This document shows, in pieces, positions 10,262 to 33,633 of a DNA stretch of 37,648 nt. The notes below the pieces were generated by a model. The model was not told the origin of the DNA. It worked only from the letters and a program-made list of their open reading frames with translations, and did no database searches. The stretch lies in the IMG/VR virus record IMGVR_UViG_3300025141_000297, positions 1 to 37,648 of that record; one strand, 5' to 3'. The stretch comes from a virus. The position numbers and the translations under genes are program-made. The first letter of the stretch is position 1, and each line of letters starts with the position of its first letter.

Positions 10262-12207
10262 GCTAATATATCTCCAATTTGGTTTAGTAACTTAAGTGCG
10301 CTGTCATAAGCGAATCTACCTTGTTTATCGCTTACCTTCAGCCTAAAGGGTATCATTCTAATTAAATGAAGTGCTGTATAGAAGTAAATCTTTGCTCTTA
10401 ATACTTCTTCGTCTTCATCTAACATCTTACTCCATAGATTGATATACCCTTCAATCTGAGGAGAGTCTAATGAGAAATCAAATGTTTCTAATTCTTCATC
10501 TGGTAACTTAGACCATGTTTCATAATATGTTATAAGGGATTGAAACATCTTCCCCATATCTAATTCCATAGCATCCATATACTCTGCTCCATCCATATCA
10601 ATAAGTTTAACATCATCATTCTTTAGGTCTACTAAAATATTTTCAAATGTTAAATCTCCATGAACAGGACATAGACTTTTAGGTGCAAGTATCCAACCGA
10701 ATGAATTTAAACATTCATCTAACAGTAAACGTAATCTACCTGAATGGTCTAACAGTTCAGCCCTCTTAAAGACTTTCTGTTCTAAATGTTGGCGTAACCA
10801 ATCACGACCATCTTTTAATGTTGCTTTATAGTTGTATACATTGTTGGTTAATAATTTAAGTAATTTCTCTACTGCTCTATACTGTTGTTGTATATGACAT
10901 TCAGAGAGAAGTGTATAATCTTCTAAATATTCCATCTCGTAAAAATACTCATAGGAATTGTCTTCTTCGCTTGTAACATTAGGAACTAATGAAGTGTAAA
11001 GGGTTTTAAACCTTTTTAATTCGTTTGCTTGTTTCTTTAATTTAATATAACCTAATTCTAGATTCTCAGATTTAGAAGCAGTCTTTCTTACATACCTCTG
11101 GTCTTCATGTTCTACTAATAATGTATCAGCAAAAGACCCACCTTTCATACGTTCAATTATGTTTACATGTGGTATAGAAACCTCAAGGTCTAATATACCA
11201 TCATTACGTTTAACTTCAAAGGCACGTGCTGAAGGTCTTAAAAAATCAGAAGGTTTACGGTCATTAATCACCACACGTGGTCCTGAAGATAAATCCATAA
11301 TTAATTTATCATATTCTATATTGTTTCTCAATAGTTGAGATTCTAAATATTCACGATTTAAACTATTACGAGCTGTAGTCAATACAATGTAATAACCTTC
11401 ATCATACCACTCTCTTAATTTCTTAGTAGCACCTTCTAATACTTTGATACCCATTGTAGATGGAGAGTCTTCATGTACTATCACTGTTCCATCTAAATCA
11501 CAAAATATAGTTCCTTTACTTTCTTCTGCTAATGTCTTTTTTAATCTTTGAGGGTCACCAAAGAATTTAGCCCAATCTATTTTTACAGCTTGAACATCTT
11601 CTAAGTGTGCTACTATATCTGAAACATTATTACCATCATGTAAATTAAATGCTTCGATATCTTTTATAAAGATACAACCTATAACTCCAAAGAATTCTCC
11701 AGTAGTATCTGGTAGTTTCTTTTCTGCTATACCTGTAACCTTACCGGTATTAGTAACAGAAGCTATACTCCAAGACTTTATATCTTCTCCACGCAATGGC
11801 CATACTGGTAATATAGCATCGTAACCTTCTAATACATTTTTAAAGATATTATCTACATCTAACGCATGGTCACAATCACAAATGATAGCAGCTCCTTTTA
11901 TATTCTTTTCTTGAATTGCCATACGAATAGTCTCTGCTGGACCACTCGTTTCCTTCTCTAACATACAGATATCAAATTTAACATCAGGAAATGATTTCCT
12001 TAAATTTTCACTAACATTATATGTTTCTTCTTGTTCAGAAAGATATACGAATAATACTTCTTTAACATAAGGTAACCACTTCTTAAAAGGTTCAAAGGCT
12101 AATTCTATAAATGTTCCATGACTATTAACTTCTAGGAAAGGTTTAAAGGTTCCACCAAAACGAGTGCCCTTACCAGCCATAGGAAATATTAGTGTAGTAC
12201 TATTCAT
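10258..12207 (-). CDS. Nucleotidyltransferase-HAD phosphatase-kinase fusion
   Basis: This 649-residue protein has three domains. Residues 1-225 are a sugar/choline-type nucleotidyltransferase (PMAGKGTRFGG near the N-terminus, metal-binding CDCDH at ~110-114). Residues 233-340 are a HAD phosphatase (FCDLDGT with Asp237/Asp239; TTAR; INDRKP). Residues ~370-649 resemble an APH/choline-kinase fold (VHGDLTFEN and LIDMDGAE). Together they could phosphorylate, dephosphorylate and nucleotide-activate a sugar or amino-alcohol headgroup for glycan decoration. It sits in a tight operon with an aldolase and two carbohydrate-active proteins. The substrate cannot be told from sequence. Confidence 0.85.
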   Translation of the reverse strand: MNSTTLIFPMAGKGTRFGGTFKPFLEVNSHGTFIELAFEPFKKWLPYVKEVLFVYLSEQEETYNVSENLRKSFPDVKFDICMLEKETSGPAETIRMAIQEKNIKGAAIICDCDHALDVDNIFKNVLEGYDAILPVWPLRGEDIKSWSIASVTNTGKVTGIAEKKLPDTTGEFFGVIGCIFIKDIEAFNLHDGNNVSDIVAHLEDVQAVKIDWAKFFGDPQRLKKTLAEESKGTIFCDLDGTVIVHEDSPSTMGIKVLEGATKKLREWYDEGYYIVLTTARNSLNREYLESQLLRNNIEYDKLIMDLSSGPRVVINDRKPSDFLRPSARAFEVKRNDGILDLEVSIPHVNIIERMKGGSFADTLLVEHEDQRYVRKTASKSENLELGYIKLKKQANELKRFKTLYTSLVPNVTSEEDNSYEYFYEMEYLEDYTLLSECHIQQQYRAVEKLLKLLTNNVYNYKATLKDGRDWLRQHLEQKVFKRAELLDHSGRLRLLLDECLNSFGWILAPKSLCPVHGDLTFENILVDLKNDDVKLIDMDGAEYMDAMELDMGKMFQSLITYYETWSKLPDEELETFDFSLDSPQIEGYINLWSKMLDEDEEVLRAKIYFYTALHLIRMIPFRLKVSDKQGRFAYDSALKLLNQIGDILA

Positions 12208-12877
12208 TCAATGCCTCCGCATCTTTAAGAAACATTTGAACAGTCTCTTTAGTATACGGATGTACATACATACCTTCTAGTATGTGTGGAGGCACTGTAA
12301 CTATGTGTGCTCCATTCTCCAACCATTCCATAACATTAAACTGCTCTCTTACTGAACCTACAATTATCTTAGCTGGTAAATCATGTTCTACAAGTAATAT
12401 TCTAAGTTTAGCGATTTCTTTTTTAGAATCGTAACCCATATTATTTACTCTTCCTCCAAATAAGGAAACATAACTAGCCCCAGCACTTGCGGCTAAATAA
12501 CATTGCTGTACACTCATCATTGCTGTAACATTCACTTCTATACCCTGTTGACTCAAATCATTAATCAACTTGAGATTAGGTTCACCATTAGGACCATGTA
12601 TAGTTATTTTAATATTTATATTCTCAGCCCAAGTAGAAAACTCAACTGCTTGTTCAAAAGCTTCTTGTGAGTCATTTGTAGTTACTTCTACAGACACTGG
12701 GTAAGGATTAACTAATTCACATATCTCTACAATAGTCTTCTTTATATCTGTGTTCCCATCCTTTTTCATAATAGTAGGGTTAGTTGTTACGCCACGGATG
12801 ATTCCCATTTCGTGGAATCTTTTTATTTCCGTGACGTCAGATGAATCTAGGAAGATTCCTTCAATATCCATCTTCAT
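12200..12877 (-). CDS. Transaldolase / fructose-6-phosphate aldolase-like enzyme
   Basis: From ATG 12877 this gives 225 residues, the normal size of the FSA/TalC family. Visible are the N-terminal Asp strand (IFLDSSDV), the signature GVTTNPTI, the Schiff-base Lys in NIKITI, the SLFGGRV strand and a C-terminal VTVPPHIL. It should cleave or form C-C bonds of sugar phosphates through a Lys imine. An upstream in-frame ATG (12934) would lengthen it by 19 residues inside the neighbouring gene; I prefer 12877 because GGAGA lies 6 bases before it. Virus-borne transaldolases are known from marine cyanophages; this one sits in a glycan cassette instead. Confidence 0.85.
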   Translation of the reverse strand: MKMDIEGIFLDSSDVTEIKRFHEMGIIRGVTTNPTIMKKDGNTDIKKTIVEICELVNPYPVSVEVTTNDSQEAFEQAVEFSTWAENINIKITIHGPNGEPNLKLINDLSQQGIEVNVTAMMSVQQCYLAASAGASYVSLFGGRVNNMGYDSKKEIAKLRILLVEHDLPAKIIVGSVREQFNVMEWLENGAHIVTVPPHILEGMYVHPYTKETVQMFLKDAEALNE

Positions 12878-14237
12878 GCCATCTCTCCGAGAATTGTTTT
12901 TTCTGATTGTCATAGGGATATGTAGTCCAATCATAGGTAGGCCATTCTAAGTCAATACCCTTTCTAGGGAAAGACTTGAATATCTTTTTCTTCCATTTAT
13001 TACTTACTGCCATTGTCTCTTCCATGAAAGGTGCATCATCATATAAATACCTCTCAGGCATTAATAGATACTTCTTTATTGAAGGGTCGAACCTTGCATA
13101 GTAATGTGCAGCAATATAAGTTTCAGTTCTAATAAAACAATCATAGAGATGGGATAGTTCCACTTTCTCTATATTGAGTTTCTCATGTAAGCCTTTATCT
13201 TCTAAAGGTATATCAAACAACTTAATCAAGTCTGCTCTATGACCCCAATATAAATGGTCACGAGGATGGAAAGGGAAGTCCTTGAAATAACCTGCTGTGA
13301 ATATTCTAGCTTCTGCACCAGTTGGTATTGCTTTATCATAATTAGCATTAAAGAAGTCATTCATTGCTATCATACTCTCTTGAGTATAACGCTGGTCATT
13401 TCTCATCTTTACTACATATGTTGCAGAGGTTTGTTTTACTCCAGCTAAAGAAGAAACTATCTGTAGGTTCCTATTACCTGTACCACTACTATCTGGTATT
13501 GGACTTTTAACTACTCTTATTCTATCATGATTAATCTCTGGAACAATATCATCTTCCCAACAAGATATAATTACCTCGTTAACAAAGTTTAAGTCTAGAT
13601 ATTGATATGCAGTATCTAAAGCATAATCACTATATGGTCCTTGTAAAACTATATCTAACTTACCATGAACTAAACACTGAGATATATTATATTCTATCAT
13701 ATCTCTATATTCATCACAGACTGTAGGGTCTTCTAATAAATTTCTAAAAGCTTCTCTACATTCATTAAATCTACCTACATGCCACAGACTTACTGCATAT
13801 TCAAATTTTAATTGATATATACCTTTATAACCTACGTCAGTGTATAATGGGTCTATATCTTCTTTGTTTACTATTTGAAAGTTTCCTAACTGTAATCCCA
13901 TTTTAGCATAAGCCATACCTTGTTTATGCATAGCTTGTGTTCCATAGAACTGAGCTAATGCATGATATGCTTCTACACGATTAGGCAACAAGTCTATTGC
14001 CATTAATAGTGTATTCTTTTCATGGGTCATTCTTTCTCCCTGTGCACCAAAACACTTAGCTATTCTAAGTAAACATTCATACTGTAATTTCTTTTCAGTA
14101 GTTTTGTCAACACAACTATAGTAATAACCTATAGCTGATGCCCATTGGTCTATCTTCTCGTATTCAAATCCAACATCAAAATTCTTCTCGGGATGTTGAG
14201 TATCATATATAAACTTTTCTAATTGGTCTTGTAACAT
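12861..14237 (-). CDS. TPR-containing WavE-like glycosyltransferase
   Basis: The first ~190 of 458 residues are helical repeats of TPR type (AYHALAQFYG, YAVSLWHVGRF, CREAFRNLL). From residue ~195 the protein resembles the WavE lipopolysaccharide-synthesis family: DIVLQGPY, then IISCWEDD, then GTGNRNLQI and YVVKMRNDQ, with FHPRDHLYWG further on. It probably transfers or trims sugars on a surface glycan. TPR-to-transferase fusions are common in viral and marine surface-glycan clusters. The start forms a TAATG overlap with the preceding gene. Confidence 0.7.
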   Translation of the reverse strand: MLQDQLEKFIYDTQHPEKNFDVGFEYEKIDQWASAIGYYYSCVDKTTEKKLQYECLLRIAKCFGAQGERMTHEKNTLLMAIDLLPNRVEAYHALAQFYGTQAMHKQGMAYAKMGLQLGNFQIVNKEDIDPLYTDVGYKGIYQLKFEYAVSLWHVGRFNECREAFRNLLEDPTVCDEYRDMIEYNISQCLVHGKLDIVLQGPYSDYALDTAYQYLDLNFVNEVIISCWEDDIVPEINHDRIRVVKSPIPDSSGTGNRNLQIVSSLAGVKQTSATYVVKMRNDQRYTQESMIAMNDFFNANYDKAIPTGAEARIFTAGYFKDFPFHPRDHLYWGHRADLIKLFDIPLEDKGLHEKLNIEKVELSHLYDCFIRTETYIAAHYYARFDPSIKKYLLMPERYLYDDAPFMEETMAVSNKWKKKIFKSFPRKGIDLEWPTYDWTTYPYDNQKKQFSERWHEDGY

Positions 14238-16550: not shown

Positions 16551-16580
16551 TTTTTTGCCATGGCGATAAATTTTTTTTAT
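16551..16580 (+). repeat. GCCATGGC/T-run repeat, copy 1
   Basis: T6, the palindrome GCCATGGC (16557-16564), then GATAAA and T8. In this copy GCGATAAA pairs with TTTATCGC to form a perfect 8-bp hairpin with a T5 loop. Same orientation as the other copies. Confidence 0.8.
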
Positions 16581-16599
16581 CGCTCCTTTATATATGCCC

Positions 16600-16704
16600 T
16601 TATAGCTCATCCTCCTCTAATTGCTTAAGGGCGTTTACTATTGCCTCACTCAATAGCTTATCCAACCTATCAAGGGTGCTACGGGTGGAGGGGGTGGCAC
16701 TCAT
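16600..16704 (-). CDS. 34-residue phage-type micro-protein
   Basis: Starts MSATPSTRS and forms one acidic amphipathic helix (LDKLLSEAIVNALKQL). It overlaps the upstream 57-residue gene by ATGA. Similar short helical ORFs accompany that gene type in marine phages, which is known context rather than proof. Function unknown. Confidence 0.5.
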   Translation of the reverse strand: MSATPSTRSTLDRLDKLLSEAIVNALKQLEEDEL

Positions 16705-16874
16705 GCATACCCCCCACATGCCTCTACAAATACCCCCCTATCAAAACGGGGGTTATCTTGGGCGAACATATCAGCAAAGGCCTCTATAAGTTTAGCCTGT
16801 GACGCCGTAGGGCTACCGTGTGGAAAGGCCTTTATTATTTCAGCTACGGCCACGTAGTGCTTACGCGTCATCAT
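16701..16874 (-). CDS. 57-residue protein of a widespread marine-phage family
   Basis: Begins MMTRKHYVAVAEIIKAF and ends with FADMF..DNPRFDR..F.EACG, a pattern I recognise from many small proteins of bacterial and marine phages (usually of unknown function). The GGAGG site and ATGA overlap with the previous stop support the start; the first or second Met may be used. Its presence in an archaeal-looking genome suggests exchange between viral groups. No catalytic motif is visible. Confidence 0.75.
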   Translation of the reverse strand: MMTRKHYVAVAEIIKAFPHGSPTASQAKLIEAFADMFAQDNPRFDRGVFVEACGGYA

Positions 16875-17122
16875 TGTTTAGCCTCCCTTATTTCTTTGCC
16901 TTCCTTTTTTCCGGCTTCGTAATCGGTTATAATTTCACCGAGTCGTTTTATTACATGCGTTCCCCAATTTCTTTTTTGGTGTCCGTTCATCATTGAAACA
17001 TCAGCTAAATAATCAAGCATCCCAATTAAATGATGAAATGCGTTAGATTCATTTCTCATTTGGTCATTTGATAATGCCTCTGCTTCGTAAGCTCTTTTTA
17101 CGTAGGTTCTTATATTAACCAT
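16871..17122 (-). CDS. Small helical protein, unknown
   Basis: 83 residues, largely helical, His/Asn-rich in the middle (NAFHHLIGMLDYLADVSMMNGH) with a Lys/Glu-rich tail. It directly abuts the upstream gene (17123) and overlaps the downstream one by ATGA, so it belongs to a four-gene leftward operon starting at 17440. No family recognised. Confidence 0.65.
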   Translation of the reverse strand: MVNIRTYVKRAYEAEALSNDQMRNESNAFHHLIGMLDYLADVSMMNGHQKRNWGTHVIKRLGEIITDYEAGKKEGKEIREAKQ

Positions 17123-17440
17123 TTATAAATTCTCCATGTATCCGATTTCAATCATTGGGTCCTCTGGGGTTGTATTCCATTGGTTAGCTTCAACGCTTGG
17201 GTAAAGTTTAAACTTTGCTCCGACGCTGTTAATTGCGTCCCAAACTTCGCCGTCGTCAAGACTGCCGTGTTTGGTTCCGAAGCTGTGTAAGTTTGCCCAG
17301 CCTACGGTGTGACAGTAAAGGCTATTTGTTCCTTCCATTCTGGAACCCAATACTTCCACATAAAAGTTGTGGATACTCATCAATCGACCTTCCCAGTCGA
17401 CGAAGCCGGTTTTATTAGTTTGATACGTTTGTGTTGTCAT
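17123..17440 (-). CDS. Small protein, unknown, first gene of leftward operon
   Basis: 105 residues, rich in Trp, Tyr, Gly and His, of mixed alpha/beta appearance (KTGFVDWEGRLMSI, VGWANLHSFG, EVWDAINSVG). A GAGGTAATT site precedes the ATG and a TATA promoter lies ~45 bases upstream. No membrane segment or known motif; likely an early or accessory cytoplasmic protein. Confidence 0.65.
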   Translation of the reverse strand: MTTQTYQTNKTGFVDWEGRLMSIHNFYVEVLGSRMEGTNSLYCHTVGWANLHSFGTKHGSLDDGEVWDAINSVGAKFKLYPSVEANQWNTTPEDPMIEIGYMENL

Positions 17441-17480
17441 TTTAATTACCTCTTTTTCTCTATATTACACACAGTTTCAA

Positions 17481-17497
17481 AGTATATAAAGCTTTGC
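17481..17497 (-). promoter_or_regulatory. TATA/BRE promoter of the 17440-16600 operon
   Basis: Minus-strand GGCAAAGCTTTATATACTT has the same CAAAGC(T/C)TTATATACTTTG core as the promoter at 18378-18394. The two promoters belong to a duplicated intergenic block. Confidence 0.65.
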
Positions 17498-17530
17498 CTC
17501 TAATACATATATAAAGGTCCTCTACCCTTA

Positions 17531-17562
17531 TATACTGCGTTATATCTCCCGCTCACTATTTT
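17531..17562. repeat. Duplicated intergenic block, copy A
   Basis: TATACTGCGTTATA...CCGCTCACTATTTT here recurs as TATAGTGCGTTATA...CCGCTCACTATTTT at 18428-18459. Both copies lie between a leftward TATA promoter and a GCCATGGC repeat, so the whole block looks duplicated. Confidence 0.6.
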
Positions 17563-17604
17563 TGATAAATTTCCCCAGCTCCCGCCTCACAAATCAAAAA
17601 AATA

Positions 17605-17631
17605 AATTTTGCCATGGCTAAAAATTTTTTT
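17605..17631 (+). repeat. GCCATGGC/T-run repeat, copy 2
   Basis: AAATTTT, GCCATGGC (17611-17618), then TAAAAA and T7. It precedes the structured region that begins near 17640. Confidence 0.8.
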
Positions 17632-17639
17632 AGGTTACC

Positions 17640-18172
17640 CTAAACATTGTTAATCATAAGATGTCGATTGGGGTGCCCCAGAACCCCTCACGCTAACCAC
17701 GGGCTTCCAACCGCGGGTGTTCGAATCACCCCAGTCACACACGCCCTAATGTCCCTAACTGATTAGGAAGCAACATTCTTGACTTGTGTGCTGTTTTACG
17801 CTTCGCCATTCGTTGTCCGGCGACCGACATTATTTTAATTCGGATTATACCCGAATCTTAAAACCCGTGCACGGGCATAAGTGTAAAAATAATTCCTTAG
17901 GGTTGTAATACTATTTTACTATTTTCATCCTTTTAAGTCTAATTTCTAACGAAAGAAATTAAGTTCCCCTAAGGGTGTGAGGGAGGGTTCAAGGTTAACC
18001 TCCAAAGACTACCGGCCCAAATACCTAAGTATTGTCCGCACTTACCACTCACCACCTCCTCAGACACTTGTCCGTTGGAGCAGGTTATTGTGTGCCTTAC
18101 CCCCTTTGGGAAGGGGTTATTCAGCCACTCACGATAAGAGAGAGCTACTCTCTTAAATCTAATTGCGTATGA
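17640..18172 (+). ncRNA. Structured non-coding stretch A
   Basis: About 530 bases with no credible ORF but many clean stems: CCTAAT/ATTAGG (17753-17768), ATTCGG/CCGAAT (17838-17856), the palindrome CCCGTGCACGGG (17864-17875), CCTTAGGG/CCCTAAGG (17895-17974) enclosing AATTTCT/AGAAATT (17941-17960), CCCCTT-TGGG-AAGGGG near 18102-18117, and TAAGAGA/TCTCTTA (18135-18155). The density of perfect stems suggests a large RNA. The strand is uncertain; plus-strand TATA-like boxes lie near 17510-17535, while a minus-strand gene at 18343 could read through. Not a family I recognise. Confidence 0.45.
17663..17738 (+). other. tRNA-like element (T-arm and acceptor-like ends)
   Basis: GGGTG-TTCGAAT-CACCC (17715-17731) is a perfect T-arm with the consensus loop. 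GATTG (17666-17670) pairs with CAGTC (17732-17736) just outside it, and GGGGT/ACCCC (17670-17687) gives a D-arm-like hairpin. Between them, CCACGG and CCGCGG flank an 8-base loop containing TTCC. The D-loop lacks GG and there is no variable loop, so it is not a standard tRNA. It could be a tRNA-like domain of RNA A, a decayed tRNA, or an attachment site derived from a tRNA 3' half. Confidence 0.35.
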
Positions 18173-18343
18173 TTATAACAAGCTACTGTCACGAAGTAGA
18201 CGATTAACGCCCCACTTCTTGATTCTTACAAGCCTTGCTTGAATCTTCAAAGGTTGCTTGTAGAACGTCTCAAAGTCGAGTGCTCCACCGTTTCCCTTGT
18301 AGTTGTGCCAGTTGCTCATTATTTGGTTTTCGTATTTGTTCAT
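18173..18343 (-). CDS. 56-residue basic protein, unknown
   Basis: Small ORF (MNKYENQIMSNW...) with Tyr/Trp/Asn in the first half and a basic amphipathic second half (KIQARLVRIKKWGVNRLL). A GAGGAAAAC-type site precedes the ATG, and a TATA promoter lies about 38 bases upstream. The basic C-terminus would suit nucleic-acid binding, possibly at the adjacent repeat zone. Confidence 0.6.
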   Translation of the reverse strand: MNKYENQIMSNWHNYKGNGGALDFETFYKQPLKIQARLVRIKKWGVNRLLRDSSLL

Positions 18344-18377
18344 TGTTTGTTTTCCTCTGTATTACCTGTAGCAACAA

Positions 18378-18394
18378 AGTATATAAGGCTTTGG
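18378..18394 (-). promoter_or_regulatory. TATA/BRE promoter of the 56-residue gene
   Basis: Minus-strand CCAAAGCCTTATATACTTTG, nearly the same as the promoter at 17481-17497. Confidence 0.6.
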
Positions 18395-18403
18395 GTCATT
18401 TTA

Positions 18404-18431
18404 GTATATAAGGGTCGAGGGGGTATATATA
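18404..18431. repeat. 28-bp perfect direct repeat, copy 1
   Basis: A TATATAAGG box, GTCGAGGGGG and TATATATA in tandem; identical to 18546-18573. It runs into block B of the duplicated intergenic unit (18428-18459). The TATATAAGG parts could be rightward TATA boxes or protein-binding sites. Confidence 0.8.
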
Positions 18432-18480
18432 GTGCGTTATAGGTTCCGCTCACTATTTTCGGCGCAAAAAAAAATAAAAA

Positions 18481-18505
18481 TCGCCATGGCCAAAAATTTT
18501 TTTTT
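18481..18505 (+). repeat. GCCATGGC/T-run repeat, copy 3
   Basis: Preceded by an A-rich tract, then GCCATGGC (18483-18490), CAAAAA and T9. It lies between the two copies of the 28-bp direct repeat. Confidence 0.8.
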
Positions 18506-18545
18506 AGCGTCCGCGTCAAAAAGTGCGAGCGGGTTCTATATCGGG

Positions 18546-18573
18546 GTATATAAGGGTCGAGGGGGTATATATA
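18546..18573. repeat. 28-bp perfect direct repeat, copy 2
   Basis: Identical to 18404-18431. This copy lies directly upstream of the promoter at 18584-18598, so it may be an operator or activator site for the rightward micro-gene operon. Confidence 0.8.
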
Positions 18574-18583
18574 CCTTTTAGGG

Positions 18584-18598
18584 AGAAAGCTTTAAATA
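18584..18598 (+). promoter_or_regulatory. TATA/BRE promoter of the first rightward operon
   Basis: GAGAAAGCTTTAAATACT matches the consensus shared by the rightward promoters in this genome. ATG 18634 follows after about 38 bases with a GAGGT site. Confidence 0.7.
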
Positions 18599-18633
18599 CT
18601 CTCTCGCTACAAGTAAAATACGAGGTAATACAA

Positions 18634-18771
18634 ATGAGTGACCACTACAACGATACGTTTGGACAGTGCGATAACTGTCAGCTTGAAAGCCGATTATACG
18701 GCGGAATCTGTGAGGACTGCGACTCAGAATATTTTGCAGAATTTTGGACAGGTGATGAAGATGAGCTTTGA
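18634..18771 (+). CDS. Zinc-ribbon micro-protein
   Basis: 45 residues with C12-x2-C15 and C26-x2-C29, a classic zinc-ribbon spacing, and an acidic C-terminus. An earlier in-frame start (18523) is unlikely because it lies upstream of the promoter. It overlaps the TM micro-gene that follows. It may be an adaptor or transcription-modulating zinc knuckle. Confidence 0.65.
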   Translation: MSDHYNDTFGQCDNCQLESRLYGGICEDCDSEYFAEFWTGDEDEL

Positions 18772-18832
18772 AATAATATTATTCTTCTACTGTTTAGTTT
18801 TTGCATATACAGGTAGGGAGGCCTTTCAATGA
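18761..18832 (+). CDS. 23-residue single-TM micropeptide
   Basis: MSFEIILFFYCLVFAYTG... is almost entirely hydrophobic, ideal for one membrane helix. It starts inside the zinc-ribbon gene and overlaps the next zinc-ribbon gene by ATGA. The zinc/TM/zinc order recurs at 31670-31985. Confidence 0.5.
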   Translation: MSFEIILFFYCLVFAYTGREAFQ

Positions 18833-18954
18833 GTAAATTCGATTATCCATTCTGTGAAATATGTGCAGAAGAATTGAGATTATTCATTGATGCTACTAAG
18901 GTAGCTCGAGGTTATGAATGCTGTGATGACTGCTTTATGGAGTTGGGAATATGA
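18829..18954 (+). CDS. Zinc-ribbon micro-protein
   Basis: 41 residues with C9-x2-C12 and C31/C32-x2-C35, a zinc-ribbon pattern. Linked to both neighbours by ATGA overlaps. Confidence 0.6.
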   Translation: MSKFDYPFCEICAEELRLFIDATKVARGYECCDDCFMELGI

Positions 18955-19112
18955 ACAGGTCAGAAGTTATAACAGGTATTCAGGCCTTAAGGTATGAATT
19001 AGAAAAAGCTAACTTTTCAGATAACACGATAGATTATTATGATGAAGTTTTACAACAGTGCCGGTTGGCTGTTCTTCTTAATGAACAGAATGACCCACAC
19101 TCGAGGTATTAA
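18951..19112 (+). CDS. Small helical protein, unknown
   Basis: 53 residues (MNRSEVITGIQ...), predicted as two helices, of mixed charge. ATGA overlap with the gene before; the next ATG follows its stop immediately. No family recognised. Confidence 0.5.
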   Translation: MNRSEVITGIQALRYELEKANFSDNTIDYYDEVLQQCRLAVLLNEQNDPHSRY

Positions 19113-19250
19113 ATGATAGAAATAGGAACCGTAACCTTTAATAAGGAGTTAGTCGATAAACTAATTCAAAAAGGTTTCGAAGAAGACGATGAAGCACAGG
19201 AGCTGGTTTCAGGGGCCGAATCCCGACCAGCTCCCAAGAACAAGGCCTAA
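19113..19250 (+). CDS. Small acidic protein, unknown
   Basis: 45 residues beginning MIEIGTVTFNKELVDK, with an acidic middle and a basic Pro/Lys tail. Last gene of the 18634-19250 operon; a strong terminator-like hairpin begins before its stop codon. Confidence 0.5.
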   Translation: MIEIGTVTFNKELVDKLIQKGFEEDDEAQELVSGAESRPAPKNKA

Positions 19251-19309
19251 GCTCAGTCATTAATGTGACGCTCTTAGGCCAGCGCTCACTCAGGCAAATC
19301 TTATTTTTT
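19244..19309 (+). terminator. Hairpin plus T-run terminator
   Basis: GGCCTAAG (19244-19251) pairs perfectly with CTTAGGCC (19273-19280); inside it GTCA/TGAC can pair too. A T-run (19301-19309) follows and leads into GCCATGGC copy 4. Confidence 0.6.
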
Positions 19310-19331
19310 GCCATGGCGAAAATTCTTTTTT
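19301..19331 (+). repeat. GCCATGGC/T-run repeat, copy 4
   Basis: TTATTTTTT, GCCATGGC (19310-19317), GAAAATTC and T6. The 9-base lead CTTATTTTT is shared with copies 1 and 5. Confidence 0.8.
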
Positions 19332-19346
19332 ACATACTGTCAGGCC

Positions 19347-19373
19347 AACCTTTAAATAGGGGGACTCTATTGG
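19347..19373 (+). promoter_or_regulatory. TATA promoter with TATTGG initiator; leaderless gene
   Basis: AACCTTTAAATAGG with the TATA box starting at 19351; TATTGG starts exactly 17 bases later (19368). ATG 19380 lies 29 bases after the box begins, so the mRNA probably starts at the ATG or a few bases before. Confidence 0.65.
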
Positions 19374-19379
19374 TATTGT

Positions 19380-19508
19380 ATGAGTAAAATACAAGAGATG
19401 AGAAACGATTTTCGTTTCAGGAGAGCCCCACGCCGAACAATTCAAAAGAATAAAATTGATTCTGGTGTGTTAGAACAAATTGAAGCACAGAAGAGAGGGT
19501 TAGCATGA
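19380..19508 (+). CDS. 42-residue basic protein, unknown
   Basis: Starts MSKIQEMRNDFRF and is Arg/Lys-rich (RRAPRRTIQKNK), likely nucleic-acid binding. Leaderless by promoter position. The stop overlaps the next start by ATGA. Confidence 0.55.
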   Translation: MSKIQEMRNDFRFRRAPRRTIQKNKIDSGVLEQIEAQKRGLA

Positions 19509-19741
19509 GCGGTAACCCTTGCGGAAAAACTCGGGACGTTGCTGAGCCTTATGAGGTTTGGAAAGGACCCGGCGGTTTTGAATGGAGAGTTCTTAAGAAA
19601 TACCAGAAGCCAGAGCTTGAAGCTAAGAACCCTTACGCCCGTTGGTATTGTGCCGTTAAGTCTAATATGACTTACGGGGAATTTGAATACGGTGACACTT
19701 ATGTGTCAGATATAAAATCATACGGCGTAAAGCAAGATTAA
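19505..19741 (+). CDS. 78-residue protein of a marine-virus family, unknown function
   Basis: The compact, Trp/Tyr-rich core (PYEVWKGPGGFEWRVLKKYQ, then NPYARWYCAV and GEFEYGDTYVSDI) resembles small conserved proteins of marine phages. It looks like a small beta-sheet domain. Followed by a hairpin/T-run terminator. No catalytic residues evident. Confidence 0.65.
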   Translation: MSGNPCGKTRDVAEPYEVWKGPGGFEWRVLKKYQKPELEAKNPYARWYCAVKSNMTYGEFEYGDTYVSDIKSYGVKQD

Positions 19742-19768
19742 TAATCTGGCTTGTTTTACCTCTGGAGC

Positions 19769-19800
19769 TGGTCCCTCCTAAAAAGGACCAATCTTATTTT
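19769..19800 (+). terminator. Hairpin plus T-run terminator
   Basis: TGGTCC (19769-19774) pairs with GGACCA (19785-19790), followed by ATCTTATTTTTT leading into GCCATGGC copy 5. Confidence 0.6.
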
Positions 19801-19824
19801 TTGCCATGGCTAAAAATTTTTTTT
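19795..19824 (+). repeat. GCCATGGC/T-run repeat, copy 5
   Basis: T6, GCCATGGC (19803-19810), TAAAAA and T8. It sits between a terminator and the next promoter. Confidence 0.8.
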
Positions 19825-19894
19825 GGGCAGCGGGACGTCAAAATGCGCTTCAAAAAACGCTTAAAAAATTTTGTCGACGATAGCTCCTACCACA

Positions 19895-19909
19895 ACCTTT
19901 ATATATAGA
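19895..19909 (+). promoter_or_regulatory. TATA promoter; leaderless gene
   Basis: CAACCTTTATATATAG with the box starting at 19898; ATG 19927 follows at 29 bases, the same leaderless distance as at 19351/19380. Confidence 0.6.
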
Positions 19910-19926
19910 GTATACACTGTAGTAGT

Positions 19927-20187
19927 ATGAGTAGGAGAGAGAACTTTGTAACTAAGAGCAAGATGCCTTGGCAAGTAAAAGCTACACCTTTAGCTGACTA
20001 CTACGCTGAGATAGGAGACACGGCATACGGCAAGTCCGGTAATTACCGTGAGAAAGTTTCGTTGGGTAGTTTCCCAATCGGAATGCACGAACAACTGAGA
20101 ATAGAATTATTAAATTCTAATACAGTTTTCGAATCACCCTATTGGGGTGGAGAAGACCTAAAATTGAGACAGATAATTTCTGCTTAG
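19927..20187 (+). CDS. Small protein, unknown
   Basis: 86 residues (MSRRENFVTKSK...), mixed charge with aromatic patches (PWQVKATPLADYYAEIG; SPYWGGEDL). Single-gene unit with its own promoter. The next promoter overlaps the region just after its stop. No family recognised. Confidence 0.65.
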   Translation: MSRRENFVTKSKMPWQVKATPLADYYAEIGDTAYGKSGNYREKVSLGSFPIGMHEQLRIELLNSNTVFESPYWGGEDLKLRQIISA

Positions 20188-20188
20188 A

Positions 20189-20219
20189 GCGAAAGCTTTA
20201 AGTAGAGAGTCTCTATTGG
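20189..20219 (+). promoter_or_regulatory. TATA/BRE promoter with TATTGG initiator
   Basis: GCGAAAGCTTTAAGTA with the box at 20197 and TATTGG at 20214, exactly 17 bases later. Here the ATG is 45 bases downstream with an AGGAG site, so this mRNA has a leader. Confidence 0.65.
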
Positions 20220-20241
20220 TATAACACAAGGAGTATAAAAA

Positions 20242-20589
20242 ATGGTAGCAACAAAGAAAGACCAAAAAAGCACAGCGATGGACTACTTAGCTTCACCACG
20301 AAGTGAAGGTTTAGTAGTTGGAATAATGACCCTGTTAGGATACACAGCACCAAAAGGTGGTAGACTTCCAGCAGGAGTTAAATACGACACACTCGTGGCA
20401 CTTCATGATGTATTAGGAGCTGAAGATAAGTTCCAATCAATGATGAGTTCACGAATTGCTCAACTTCAAGGAAACCGCAGTCGTGGTTCACCTAAGATTG
20501 GAGCAAATCCAGAATCGATTATTCAAGCAGTAAAGCAAGGGAAGATTTCTCTTGAAGAACTAAAGAAACAAATCGCTTCTTTGGATTAG
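20242..20589 (+). CDS. Small helical protein, unknown
   Basis: 115 residues: a hydrophobic Gly-rich N-terminal part (GLVVGIMTLLGYTAPKGG) and a helical C-terminal part ending in a short coiled segment (IIQAVKQGKISLEELKKQI). Strong AGGAG site and promoter, and a perfect terminator hairpin just after the stop suggest high expression. No family recognised. Confidence 0.65.
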   Translation: MVATKKDQKSTAMDYLASPRSEGLVVGIMTLLGYTAPKGGRLPAGVKYDTLVALHDVLGAEDKFQSMMSSRIAQLQGNRSRGSPKIGANPESIIQAVKQGKISLEELKKQIASLD

Positions 20590-20599
20590 TCAACACGTA

Positions 20600-20630
20600 G
20601 GGGAGGCGAATCCTCCCCACTTATATTTAT
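20600..20630 (+). terminator. Perfect GC hairpin terminator
   Basis: GGGGAGG-CGAAT-CCTCCCC (20600-20618), a 7-bp perfect stem with 5-base loop, followed by ACTTATATTTAT. Confidence 0.65.
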
Positions 20631-21012
20631 ACAGAGCTCGTATAATCGGGACCGTAAGTTAAGTCACGCATTCGCACACTAAAGAAACAACCGTAATTTG
20701 AACACGCGCACATTTCCCTCCGTCAATCCGTTAGTCCCTTATTGAGGTGGCGTCTTAAATAGAAAACTTCAGCCTCTTTTCAAACTAACGTGCATCACGC
20801 GACACTTCCCTCCGTTTGAATCATTTACGAAGGTCGTTTCTCTGTATGTATCGTCTGACAGCACTTGCTTGTGTAATAACCTGACTGGAAACGGTTTGTT
20901 ATTACGCGGTCCCAAAACCTTATAATGACTACTGGTCTAAACAGGAGGGGTTTAAAGCGGGACGCCCGACCCTAATTTATTAGGGACCCCTCCGACGTGA
21001 CCTATTTTTTTT
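20630..21012 (+). ncRNA. Structured non-coding stretch B with duplicated module
   Basis: No credible ORF. A module is present twice: CACGCG then TTCCCTCCGT at 20703-20723 and again at 20796-20815, with equal internal spacing. The flanks differ but still pair: TTGA/TCAA in the first, CAAAC/GTTTG in the second. An 8-bp perfect stem GTAATAAC/GTTATTAC lies at 20873-20905. The stretch ends in the branched hairpin and T-run at 20944-21012. A rightward RNA of ~350 bases is plausible. Confidence 0.45.
20944..21012 (+). terminator. Branched (three-way) hairpin followed by T-run
   Basis: Outer stem GGAGGGGT/ACCCCTCC (20944-20951 with 20986-20993) encloses CGGG-ACG-CCCG (20958-20968) and CCCTAA-TTTA-TTAGGG (20970-20985); a T8 run follows from 21005. 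The form is close to that of the leader at 6640-6706. Confidence 0.55.
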
Positions 21013-21090
21013 GCATGGCTAAAACTTTTTTTTTGCCATGGCTAAAACTTTTTTTTGACATGGCAGTTTCTTCTTTTTTGCCATGGCGCA
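21005..21090 (+). repeat. Tandem cluster of four GCCATGGC/T-run repeats (copies 6-9)
   Basis: Copies are centred at 21013-21019 (GCATGGC, one base short), 21035-21042 (perfect), 21057-21064 (GACATGGC) and 21080-21087 (perfect). T-runs of 6-9 bases separate them. Core spacing is about 22-23 bases, i.e. two helical turns. Confidence 0.8.
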
Positions 21091-21107
21091 TATAACTTTT
21101 ATATACT

Positions 21108-21123
21108 TAAGCTCAATTAAGCA
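21108..21123 (+). repeat. 16-bp iteron TAAGCTCNAYTAAGCA, copy 1
   Basis: TAAGCTCAATTAAGCA; two near-identical copies lie at 21381-21396 and 21402-21417. Confidence 0.65.
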
Positions 21124-21161
21124 TACCTCTCGACGGGCTTAACTAAGAATGCTTTATAATG

Positions 21162-21300
21162 CCTATGCCCCGTGAGGCCTAAGCGTATAGGTCGAGGTGA
21201 GAAAGCTTAAACTAAGCATATAGAAACTCACTAACGCTAAGTCGGGGTGAGAAACTTAGCGTATAGTCTCTATCATGCCGTGAGAAAATGCATAATAGAG
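21162..21300 (+). repeat. Four GTGAG units in hairpins with CTAAGCGTATAG repeats
   Basis: GTGAG occurs at 21172, 21197, 21247 and 21280. CTAAGCGTATAG or close variants lie at 21179, 21212 and 21255. Two units form clear stems with GTGAGAAA in the loop: CGCTAAG/CTTAGCG (21235-21261) and CTCTATCATGC/GCATAATAGAG (21268-21300, one mismatch). TAAGC/GCTTA and CCTATGC/GCGTATAGG give weaker ones. The cluster could be an origin iteron array or an RNA with repeated protein-binding loops. Confidence 0.6.
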
Positions 21301-21380
21301 CCTATATCTATTTATTTTGCCTGTTATATGTGTGAACAGAGCAAAATACTTATATACACCCATTAACTATATATTATAAT

Positions 21381-21417
21381 TAAGCTCTACTAAGCAATTA
21401 ATAAGCTCTATTAAGCA
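21381..21417 (+). repeat. 16-bp iterons, copies 2 and 3, in an AT-rich stretch
   Basis: TAAGCTCTACTAAGCA (21381-21396) and TAAGCTCTATTAAGCA (21402-21417). The flanks from 21340 to 21480 are almost pure A/T with TATATCTTAATATAG motifs, suitable as a DNA-unwinding element. Confidence 0.65.
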
Positions 21418-21484
21418 TTTTACTTATATCTATATTATAGCTCTTAATTAATCTATATCTTAATATAGTATAATATAGGAGTCT

Positions 21485-21876: not shown

Positions 21877-22227
21877 ATGGATAGAGAAGTAACGATAGAG
21901 GATGTGCAACATTTTATACGTGCCAAGTCTGAGATACCCCTGATTCATGTTAGAGGTATGGATGACCCCATCTATAAGAATATGGAGGATATAGTCCTGA
22001 GAATCTGGCCGGATACAGAGAAACATCCATATGCGATAGCAAGTCAAATTAAAGAGATAATGTTTACCTTTCAGTATATGGAAGATTATGATAAAGATAA
22101 GATTATAAATACCTTTGCTAAGTATCAAGTAAAGGGAGAGAGTGGTGGTATACACGGAGAACGCACATATGGATACGATAAGAGTAGGATAGACCGTTCT
22201 TTAATAAGAAGAAAGAGAGGTAATTAA
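21877..22227 (+). CDS. Small protein, unknown
   Basis: 116 residues with an acidic first half (TIEDVQHFIRAKSE, YKNMEDIVLRIWPD), a central helix (IASQIKEIMFTFQYM) and a basic tail (DRSLIRRKRG). Possibly DNA binding through the tail. TAATG overlap with the next gene. Confidence 0.6.
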   Translation: MDREVTIEDVQHFIRAKSEIPLIHVRGMDDPIYKNMEDIVLRIWPDTEKHPYAIASQIKEIMFTFQYMEDYDKDKIINTFAKYQVKGESGGIHGERTYGYDKSRIDRSLIRRKRGN

Positions 22228-24553: not shown

Positions 24554-24931
24554 ATGGTAAGAGTAAAGAAAAGTCTATATTGGCATCAAACAGCTGAGTA
24601 TCTCTTAGCTAATGGTCTATCCCCATCTGAATGTGGAAAGGTAATAAAACAGGCTTTCCCACATACAACAGTTAATGGTAGACATGTCGGTGCATATAAG
24701 CGTAGACTGATAGAAGAAGGTAAGTTAGATAAGAACACACCTAAGACATTGAGTGTGAATGAAGCATATACTGTTATCAAGGGATTGATAAGTAAAGATG
24801 ATAAGTTCATATATCAATGTTCTATTGGTGCACAAAAAAGAACATTAAAGTGTTTTGAATATAAAATGACTATGGAAGCTAAGTCAGACGAAGAGGATAT
24901 AGACGAATGGATAAAGAATATGGCGATATAG
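24554..24931 (+). CDS. Small protein between MoxR and VWA genes
   Basis: 125 residues. The N-terminal ~60 look like a DNA-binding or adaptor helix bundle (TAEYLLANGLSPSECGKV, then GRHVGAYKRRLIEEGKL), and the C-terminal half is mixed alpha/beta with an acidic end. It starts two bases after the MoxR stop and overlaps the VWA gene by 25 bases, so it may belong to the same complex. No family recognised. Confidence 0.65.
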   Translation: MVRVKKSLYWHQTAEYLLANGLSPSECGKVIKQAFPHTTVNGRHVGAYKRRLIEEGKLDKNTPKTLSVNEAYTVIKGLISKDDKFIYQCSIGAQKRTLKCFEYKMTMEAKSDEEDIDEWIKNMAI

Positions 24932-29718: not shown

Positions 29719-30321
29719 ATGAAAGAGATAATGAAGAGATATAGCACTACATTCTTTGAGTGTATGGATGCATGGCCCGATGAGATAAAAGAAGATATAT
29801 ATAAATTATATGCTTACTTAAGAGTATGTGACGAGATGGTAGAAGGTGCTGAACTTAAAGATTTTAAACAATGGAGGGAAGTAATAGAACAATTCTATGA
29901 AGTTAGTGATAAGTATCAGTTCAAGGGTGAATGGTTATCAGATTTCCATGTAGCGATGTATACAGATTTAGTTAAGAAAGAACATACTGTGAAGTCTATG
30001 CTTGAGTATTGTAAAGGTTCAGCTGAGTCAGTAGGTGTAATGATGGCATCTATATTAGGTTGTGACCCACGAGCTGAGAGACATGCAAGGGCTTTAGGTA
30101 GAGCATATCAAATAATAAACTTTGTTAGAGACTATGAAGAAGATATAGCTAATGGATACCACTATATTACTGATGACTTTACTTTATATATTAAATTGTT
30201 TATGGAAGATTTACAGATAGGCGTAGAAGGACTACACTTCATACCTGAAGACTTACGTGGCCCTATACTACAAGCCAACCAATCATACTTAGAGGTGGCA
30301 CGTGAAACCAACATACTATAA
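29719..30321 (+). CDS. Squalene/phytoene synthase homologue
   Basis: 200 residues with the main signatures of the trans-isoprenyl head-to-head synthases. YSTTFF corresponds to the SFS entry motif. LYAYLRVCDEMVEG matches the first Asp-rich helix (canonical DDxxD/DxxxD; here D38-E-M-V-E42). YCKGSAESVGVMMASILG matches the YxxxVAGxVG helix, and ALGRAYQIINFVRDYEED keeps the second DxxxD intact (D138-D142). It is shorter than cellular enzymes (about 280-350 residues), ending soon after the second motif. It could join two C15 or C20 prenyl diphosphates, or be a reduced, repurposed form. Confidence 0.75.
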   Translation: MKEIMKRYSTTFFECMDAWPDEIKEDIYKLYAYLRVCDEMVEGAELKDFKQWREVIEQFYEVSDKYQFKGEWLSDFHVAMYTDLVKKEHTVKSMLEYCKGSAESVGVMMASILGCDPRAERHARALGRAYQIINFVRDYEEDIANGYHYITDDFTLYIKLFMEDLQIGVEGLHFIPEDLRGPILQANQSYLEVARETNIL

Positions 30322-30848: not shown

Positions 30849-31154
30849 ATGTCGAGAACAAGAACCTTTGACAAGCTTTTCAAAGCGGCTGAGTATTTTC
30901 ACCGCACAGGAAAGCATAAGCAAGTTAGCTTTAGGTATAACCCTGAGCAAAGAACTGACTTTAATTTCTCTAAGTGGAAACATGAGAGAGATAGTGAGTC
31001 AGTTAGGAATATCTTAGTAGAAGATATCAAAGTCTCTATGGATGGGAACTGCTACGCTGTTGGTTATGATAACAGATATAACCTTAAACAGTATGCAAGT
31101 CAATACCCTCAACACTATAGAGCATACCGTATAGATAGGATGGTAGTCAAATGA
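30849..31154 (+). CDS. WYL-like small regulator
   Basis: 101 residues. The N-terminus has a basic strand (KHKQVSFRYNP). The second half (VEDIKVSMDGNCYAVGYDN, then HYRAYRIDRM) resembles a stand-alone WYL domain, whose usual ending is RTFRLDRI after a YLVGY strand. WYL domains sense nucleic acids or ligands and control defence and transcription genes. It has its own promoter and overlaps an AbrB-like gene by ATGA, so the pair may be regulatory. The WYL call is tentative. Confidence 0.55.
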   Translation: MSRTRTFDKLFKAAEYFHRTGKHKQVSFRYNPEQRTDFNFSKWKHERDSESVRNILVEDIKVSMDGNCYAVGYDNRYNLKQYASQYPQHYRAYRIDRMVVK

Positions 31155-31321
31155 AACAGATAAGTAGTATTAAGACAATAGACCAATACAAAAGAATCTA
31201 TATCCCTGATTCAATATTAGAGGATTTAGGTTGCGATGTCGGTAGTAATGTTGCATGGATGCAGTGTGAAGACGATGGGTCTTATATGCTTAAGAAAGTA
31301 AACGTCGAAATCGTGGATTAA
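31151..31321 (+). CDS. AbrB/SpoVT-like small DNA-binding protein
   Basis: 56 residues: KTIDQYKRIYIPDSILEDLG resembles the swapped-hairpin AbrB start (R-x-I-x-I-P-x-x-I-R-x-x-L-G), followed by GSNVAWMQCED and a final strand. Such proteins act as dimeric transcription factors or antitoxins. Coupled to the WYL-like gene. Confidence 0.55.
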   Translation: MKQISSIKTIDQYKRIYIPDSILEDLGCDVGSNVAWMQCEDDGSYMLKKVNVEIVD

Positions 31322-33237: not shown

Positions 33238-33633
33238 ATGCCTCGCAAAGACTTTGTAATGGGAGTCGATGAGATATTAGACGAATGGATGAAATTGATG
33301 AGTCTATATCCCAAGTGGCAAGGACTATCTAATTGGAAAGATAACCCTATCGCCCGTGACCAAGATGTTATGGGAGATTGGGAAGATAGAAATGGAGAGA
33401 TAGCTGTTACTATTGATATGCCCGGAATTGAAAAGAAGGATATAGAAATAGTAGTAGAACCACACTCAGTAAGTATAAAGGCTGTAACAGATGTAAGGGA
33501 TTATAATGTCTACAAAAGATTTGAACAGACACTTGACCCTGAGAATGTAGTAGCTACTCTCAACAATGGCGTATTGGATATGAAAATCTCTAAGGAAGAG
33601 AAGTCCAAAGGGAAAACCATTAGCATTGAGTGA
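33238..33633 (+). CDS. hsp20: Small heat-shock protein (Hsp20/alpha-crystallin)
   Basis: 131 residues: a short N-terminal arm (1-40), then the alpha-crystallin domain with VTIDMPGIEKKDIEI and the hallmark ATLNNGVLDMKI (A-x3-N-G-V-L), ending in a short KTISIE tail. It is an ATP-independent holdase. Hsp20 genes are widespread in T4-like cyanophages; in this genome it lies between the DUF736-like and replication genes. The domain is complete and of normal length. Confidence 0.9.
   Translation: MPRKDFVMGVDEILDEWMKLMSLYPKWQGLSNWKDNPIARDQDVMGDWEDRNGEIAVTIDMPGIEKKDIEIVVEPHSVSIKAVTDVRDYNVYKRFEQTLDPENVVATLNNGVLDMKISKEEKSKGKTISIE

Follow-up and report, generated by a model that had tools for sequence, protein, structure and literature searches.

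Intergenic palindromes in the divergence zone of a putative marine archaeal tailed virus: conserved positions, lineage-specific sequences and a possible operator-like role

The stretch of DNA analysed here (the window) is the IMG/VR virus record IMGVR_UViG_3300025141_000297, an incomplete record of 37,648 b, and statements on absence apply to these 37.6 kb. Its minus strand codes for an HK97-type capsid protein, a portal protein and the large terminase, and its plus strand for a ligase, AAA and VWA proteins, a RecU-type nuclease, a squalene/phytoene synthase and a B-family DNA polymerase (PolB). Structural and replication modules are divergently transcribed and PolB is present, as described for Magrovirales (PMC12999244), and together with TATA-type promoters such as AAGCTTTAAATAC this organization is consistent with a magrovirus-like archaeal tailed virus. 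No named magrovirus was found in the phage collection for sequence comparison with the window, and no host genome carrying its terminase was found. The subject of this analysis is a short palindrome, GCCATGGC, which is repeated in intergenic gaps of the divergence zone (16.5–21.1 kb).

Seven exact copies of GCCATGGC occur in the window, compared with a mean of 0.11 and a maximum of 1 in 100 dinucleotide shuffles, and the reversed control pattern gave 0 matches. A first-pass annotation, made from the sequence alone, had counted nine copies; the repeat is real, and two of the nine (21013 and 21057) are degenerate. As that annotation had also proposed, all sites are intergenic and confined to the divergence zone, the exact copies lying between 16557 and 21087, and junctions of tandem, divergent and converging genes carry them alike. 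The four tandem units at 21013–21087 show the described spacing of 22, 22 and 23 b, which corresponds to two helical turns in this cluster, but not in relatives, where units are spaced by about 12–15 b (L012) or about 10–11 b (L095 and L091). The proposed frame of a T-run, (T/G)AAAA and a second T-run fails at 21057 and 21080 and has a C in place of T/G at 18483, and about 15 nt of flank, CAAATCTTATTTTTT, is common to some copies. A single orientation had been claimed as well: according to a T5..T6 rule the plus form is found at 16551, 19304, 19797 and in the cluster, but 17611 and 18483 have the minus-strand form. As the core is a perfect palindrome, it has no orientation of its own, and the claim depends on the flanks alone.

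L005 and L006, the relatives closest to the window, are collinear with it across the zone; the terminase of L006 is 96% identical to that of the window and the terminase of the next relative considered, L012, 86%. When the zones of the window and L006 were aligned, 55 of 57 palindrome columns (96.5%) were identical, compared with 82.6% of the other intergenic columns (Fisher p = 0.0034), and because the sample is small this is supporting rather than decisive evidence for conservation of the palindrome. Coding columns were 78.2% and non-coding blocks 75.4% identical. In the L006 ortholog of the element at 18483 the flanks have switched from A-runs to T-runs and the palindrome is retained. The ortholog of the element at 16557 reads CACCATGGCG in L006 and GCATGC in L012, and the cluster of four units has counterparts of two units in L006 and of four RCATGC/GCATGY units in L012.

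No GCCATGGC was found in L012. At its corresponding junctions, which were matched by eye from the flanking genes on top of a BLAST alignment, GCATGC or near forms lie within A/T tracts (Table 1). All dyads with arms of 3–5 bases were then scanned, with 26 control segments and with shuffles for each relative. In the zone of the window GCCATGGC came first among all dyads, with a log-likelihood ratio (LLR) of 30.3 against 13.1 for the highest control segment. Above shuffles were GCAGnnnCTGC in L093 (LLR 42.7) and L095 (LLR 44.3), CCAArGTTTGG in L094 (LLR 16.8), CAGnnnCTG in L091 (LLR 14.1) and GACnGTC in L025 (LLR 10.4), and the scan was borderline for L018 and L089. These four dyads and GGACATG, all from further lineages, are largely limited to the divergence zone, and the elements of relatives also include GCATGC and GCAGGGGCTGC types. 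In GCAGnnnCTGC the centre is variable and the arms are retained, which would fit a dimer contacting two half-sites. The type of dyad tracks the trees of the terminase and of a 115-aa protein encoded in the zone, so that the consensus changes with the virus lineage. Matches to the GCCATGGC motif in L087 and L088 were single and chance-like and were set aside.

A random distribution over the genome, which would have spoken against a functional element, was not found in longer relatives (37–81 kb), where dyads are concentrated in the corresponding zone. All 13 copies of GCAGGGGCTG in G008 and all 5 copies of GGACATGT in G002 lie there, as do 10/10 and 11/11 copies of GCAGnnnCTGC in G006 and G008, respectively, and 5/5 copies of CCAArGTTTGG in G007, the latter dyad being absent from 16 other records. 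Dyad matches are located outside predicted genes in 104 of 106 cases (overlapping matches counted separately).

Within the zone, the dyads are coupled to promoters. A dyad of the own lineage is found at most 40 nt upstream of 26 of 45 TGAGCGG-type promoter modules (median 16 nt), as compared with 2.6 expected from a uniform density; this expectation is too low because dyads and modules are both intergenic, and a fairer value, which we estimate at about 2–3 times as much, is still far below 26, while the 45 modules are not independent because several relatives are sister pairs. When dyads of other lineages were tested at promoter modules, 0 of 179 tests were positive. In the window, the element at 18483 is 29 and 32 nt away from two AGTGAGCGG-type motifs, and the element at 17611 lies upstream of the promoter of the minus-strand gene 17123–17440, at the 3' end of the minus-strand manA RNA block. 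The promoter modules themselves, of about 110 b with several TATA boxes and the AGTGAGCGG motif, occur in several dispersed copies per relative.

The dyads are likewise coupled to the 3' end of a conserved non-coding block, directly after which the cluster of the window begins. In the window, L006, L012, L018, L089, L090 and L093, CCTCCGAnGTGA or a close form, usually with a T-run, is followed by the dyad of the respective lineage at a distance of 9–29 nt, and by inspection L091, L094 and L096 have a similar layout. This block, which in the window ends in CCTCCGACGTGA and a T-run, is located downstream of the gene for the 115-aa protein in the window, L006 and L012, and it gave no match in Rfam. 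The position of the dyad is thus conserved, whereas its sequence is not.

Dyads that are kept while their flanks drift, that are replaced as a set and that occupy set positions close to promoters and to the ends of transcripts resemble the binding sites of dimeric proteins. We therefore favor, with a probability of roughly one half, the reading that the palindrome is an operator-like dyad at transcription-unit junctions, which would be bound by a sequence-specific dimeric protein of viral or host origin. A dimeric protein acting in insulation had already been suggested by the first-pass annotation, and this is the part of its functional proposal that the present data favor most, in view of the conserved core, the replacement at matching positions and RNA folding that does not exceed that of shuffles. 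The protein would bind the dyad and mark the boundary between transcription units. The dyad lies downstream of the T-tract or hairpin that ends one unit, and its distance to the AGTGAGCGG/TATA module that follows, at the start of the next unit, is often about 16 bp; when bound it could repress or modulate the next promoter and block read-through, in the manner of an operator or stoperator set. If the specificity of the binding protein switches between virus lineages, all copies within a genome would change together.

It had also been proposed that the T-runs terminate transcription. A5/T5 runs accompany 9/9 dyads in the window, 7/7 in L006, 9/10 in L012 and 6/7 each in L018 and L025 (about 0.1 at random positions), but they are uncommon in other relatives, with 2/10 in L093 and 4/11 in L095, suggesting that termination may be an added feature of the clade of the window and not the shared function. 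Elements placed after the hairpins 19240–19276 and 19770–19790 and after the end of the non-coding block, and an L012 element readable as a AAAATCGCATGCGATTTT-like inverted repeat, could together with these runs indicate bidirectional terminators at every transcription-unit end, in which T-tracts specify an archaeal U-run and the palindrome forms a small hairpin or helps pausing. However, single elements fold as RNA no better than shuffles and do not form the stable hairpin of intrinsic terminators, the good folding of the tandem cluster being inevitable for repeated palindromes; L093 and L095, which have the strongest dyads, have few T-runs; the element at 18483 lies between two divergent promoters and its T-run polarity is lost in L006; and termination does not require an identical 8-bp core in each copy. 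We regard terminators as an unlikely explanation of the palindrome itself; in the clade of the window, archaeal-type T-run termination is probably contributed in addition by the A/T tracts. The hairpin GGCCTAAG..CTTAGGCC at 19240–19276 is also found in L012 (about 3265–3225), its inner stem being compensated from GTCA/TGAC to GCCA/TGGC.

Gene rearrangement in the zone could point to recombination sites that shuffle or invert gene cassettes between viruses of the same lineage, as the segment 19350–19792 of the window is inverted in L012 (1890–2330) with its ends adjoining elements, and the cassette of the manA RNA has moved or been inverted among relatives. Breakpoints between whole transcription units are predicted by selection alone, L005 and L006 have kept the gene order of the window, and no Pfam match to a tyrosine recombinase (nine relative records) or a serine recombinase (ten) was obtained, so this account appears improbable to us. 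Little probability is likewise given to small mobile or selfish palindromic repeats, similar to repetitive extragenic palindromes (REP/REPIN) or GC clusters, which would have colonized intergenic regions separately in each lineage: lineage-specific sequences, intergenic confinement, the long GC hairpins of L100 and L119 and the flank shared by some copies would be expected from such repeats, but not the conservation of matching positions despite differing sequence or the narrow spacing to promoter modules, and the REP-associated transposase Y1_Tnp was not found in eight relatives. The four-unit cluster beside AT-rich repeats (21.1–21.5 kb), close to where gene direction and GC skew change, might suggest iterons of a replication origin or packaging sites, a role which the first-pass annotation had also considered. 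This is the most remote of the explanations and is not supported, as the sites follow transcription-unit junctions and promoter modules, gene junctions spread over 4 kb carry five further copies, the cluster differs between viruses in spacing and in its number of units (two in L006), and GCTCTATT-type repeats are common to the group while the dyads are not.

Several observations weigh against a dimeric protein acting at operator-like dyads. The elements at 16557 and at 2339 in L012 occupy gaps between converging genes, where they do not precede a promoter. In the dyad scan L012, L090, L092, L096, L100 and L121 were not significant, and L018, L089 and L012 were not prominent among perfect dyads; L092 and L121 have no clear dyad, L096 has a weak one at best, L100 and L119 carry long GC-rich hairpins in place of dyads, and no dyad of a second clade, which is more distantly related, exceeds a score of 12.3, a value that lies in the range of the control segments. 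If the group belongs with the magroviruses it is apparently lytic (PMC12999244), and a prophage repressor would then not be expected. No Pfam match to RHH_1 was obtained in ten relative records and none to MazE/AbrB in eleven, and protein-family searches with ten small proteins encoded around the zone revealed no recognised regulator. A 56-aa AbrB/SpoVT-like protein (profile match to SpoVT, E 9.3e-4), which Pfam does not recognise, is present in 8 of 12 relatives, but it is 75–79% identical between lineages with different dyads and is therefore unlikely to be the specificity factor. A second candidate, encoded at 24554–24931, is predicted to have three N-terminal helices, and its best fold match is a DNA-binding domain (non-significant, E 0.29). 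For the 115-aa zone protein, modeling gave a helical structure of low confidence. The protein at 21877 was considered and is an unlikely specificity factor, being 85% identical between the window and L119 although their elements differ.

A manA RNA-like structured RNA in the zone is a neighbor of the elements and not part of them. In the window it scored 49.6 bits (gathering threshold 55.2; E 9.6e-11) with RF01745, and five relatives have matches above the gathering threshold; over 164 b this RNA is 98% identical between the window and L090, and it occurs in both orientations. A tRNA-Glu (TTC) is found in the zone of three relatives, in one of which, L018, the start of the dyad is no more than about 10 nt away from the 3' end of the tRNA gene. 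Near 17718 the window contains a tRNA-like T-arm, which was not called by ARAGORN. The AT-rich region following the cluster is widely present across the virus group and is a possible origin. Elsewhere, host-type genes code for a transaldolase (12200–12934), the squalene/phytoene synthase (29719–30321) and an Hsp20 chaperone (33238–33633).

Table 1. Palindromic elements, neighboring features and candidate regulators in the window and in relatives
Feature	Record	Position	Strand	Remarks
Element 1	window	16551..16579	+	T6-GCCATGGC(16557-16564)-GATAAA-T8; between short plus-strand gene and converging minus-strand genes
Element 2	window	17604..17632	.	GCCATGGC 17611-17618, A/T tracts on either side
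Element 3	window	18469..18505	.	GCCATGGC 18483-18490, between two divergent promoter modules
Element 4	window	19304..19331	+	GCCATGGC 19310-19317; after hairpin 19240-19276, before TATA at ~19347
Element 5	window	19797..19825	+	GCCATGGC 19803-19810; after hairpin GGTCC..GGACC, before TATA of gene 19927-20187
Cluster	window	21005..21087	+	GCATGGC 21013, GCCATGGC 21035, GACATGGC 21057, GCCATGGC 21080; spacing 22/22/23
GCATGC-type site	L012	4830		beside converging genes
GCATGC-type sites	L012	4104/4116		at divergent promoters
GCATGC-type site	L012	3201		before ortholog of gene 18634-18771
Sites flanking inverted cassette	L012	2339; near 1856		one on either side; CCCATGCG near 1856
Four-unit cluster	L012	583-630		after non-coding block
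Promoter module	window	17453..17563	-	of minus-strand gene 17123-17440
Promoter module	window	18345..18459	-	AGTGAGCGGAACC motif and several TATA-like boxes; dispersed in zone and relatives
Promoter module, divergent	window	18516..18628	+	
Conserved non-coding block	window	20600..21000	+	end CCTCCGAnGTGA, then lineage dyad 9-29 nt on
AT-rich region	window	21100-21480		AAGCTCTATTAAGCA-type repeats
manA RNA-like structured RNA	window	17972..18155	-	RF01745, below gathering threshold
manA RNA (RF01745)	L089	4590-4770		above gathering threshold
manA RNA (RF01745)	L092	7548-7731		above gathering threshold
manA RNA (RF01745)	L094	5477-5659		above gathering threshold
manA RNA (RF01745)	L096	5250-5435		above gathering threshold
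manA RNA (RF01745)	L025	1827-2007		above gathering threshold
tRNA-Glu (TTC)	L018	3308-3383		in zone
tRNA-Glu (TTC)	L025	3187-3262		in zone
tRNA-Glu (TTC)	L100	2635-2710		in zone
Candidate regulator	window	31151..31321	+	56-aa protein with AbrB/SpoVT-like DNA-binding domain
Candidate regulator	window	24554..24931	+	predicted helical, possibly helix-turn-helix; conserved in relatives

Little is known of how uncultivated marine viruses of archaea control transcription, and in the part of the magrovirus literature covered, a magrovirus survey (PMC10160649) makes no mention of palindromes, repeats or intergenic elements. Only tentatively do we suggest that boundary dyads are replaced genome-wide and in concert between lineages of a group of marine archaeal tailed viruses, as an archaeal counterpart of heteroimmune operator sets. 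In that case a fast-evolving regulator of the virus or its host would separate early transcription units and might determine which related viruses are able to share one cell. Sets of lineage-specific sites at conserved positions offer a handle for finding the regulator by covariation; they would also allow tests of insulation and superinfection immunity in viruses of archaea and a view of how the specificity of a whole set is switched.

Among known systems, REP/REPIN palindromes are dispersed, intergenic and lineage-specific as well, but REPs are longer and associated with the Y1 transposase, whereas no Y1 match was obtained in eight relatives and the dyads occupy conserved positions. The stoperators of Cluster A mycobacteriophages (L5/Bxb1) are dispersed short sites linked to transcription, with a genome-specific consensus that changes with lineage (PMC6550527, PMC9283540). 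Like these, the dyads of the window and its relatives are many, short, lineage-specific and tied to transcription: multiple near-identical sites are present beyond chance, they are coupled to promoters and unit ends, and their consensus depends on the lineage. Stoperators are asymmetric, distributed genome-wide and for the most part aligned with the direction of transcription, and the immunity repressor that binds them is known, whereas the present sites are symmetric and restricted to one zone of an archaeal-type virus; as their core is palindromic, the polarity of their flanks is not constant with respect to transcription and the search for a cognate repressor yielded only candidates, they are not classed as a stoperator system. 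SPBRE of the Bacillus prophage SPbeta, to which MrpR binds, is a repeat of intergenic and promoter regions that was recognised from sequence before its repressor was known (PMC10516654). The palindrome of the window resembles it as a short element repeated in such regions of a single phage genome, but SPBRE is a 15-bp motif with a repressor of the tyrosine-recombinase fold, and no tyrosine recombinase match was obtained in nine relative records. In halovirus HF2, an archaeal tailed virus, repeated intergenic elements are linked to early and middle transcription (PMC8707807). The repeats of HF2 are themselves promoters, with a sequence that related viruses share, whereas the dyads described here lie upstream of the promoter module and are replaced between lineages.

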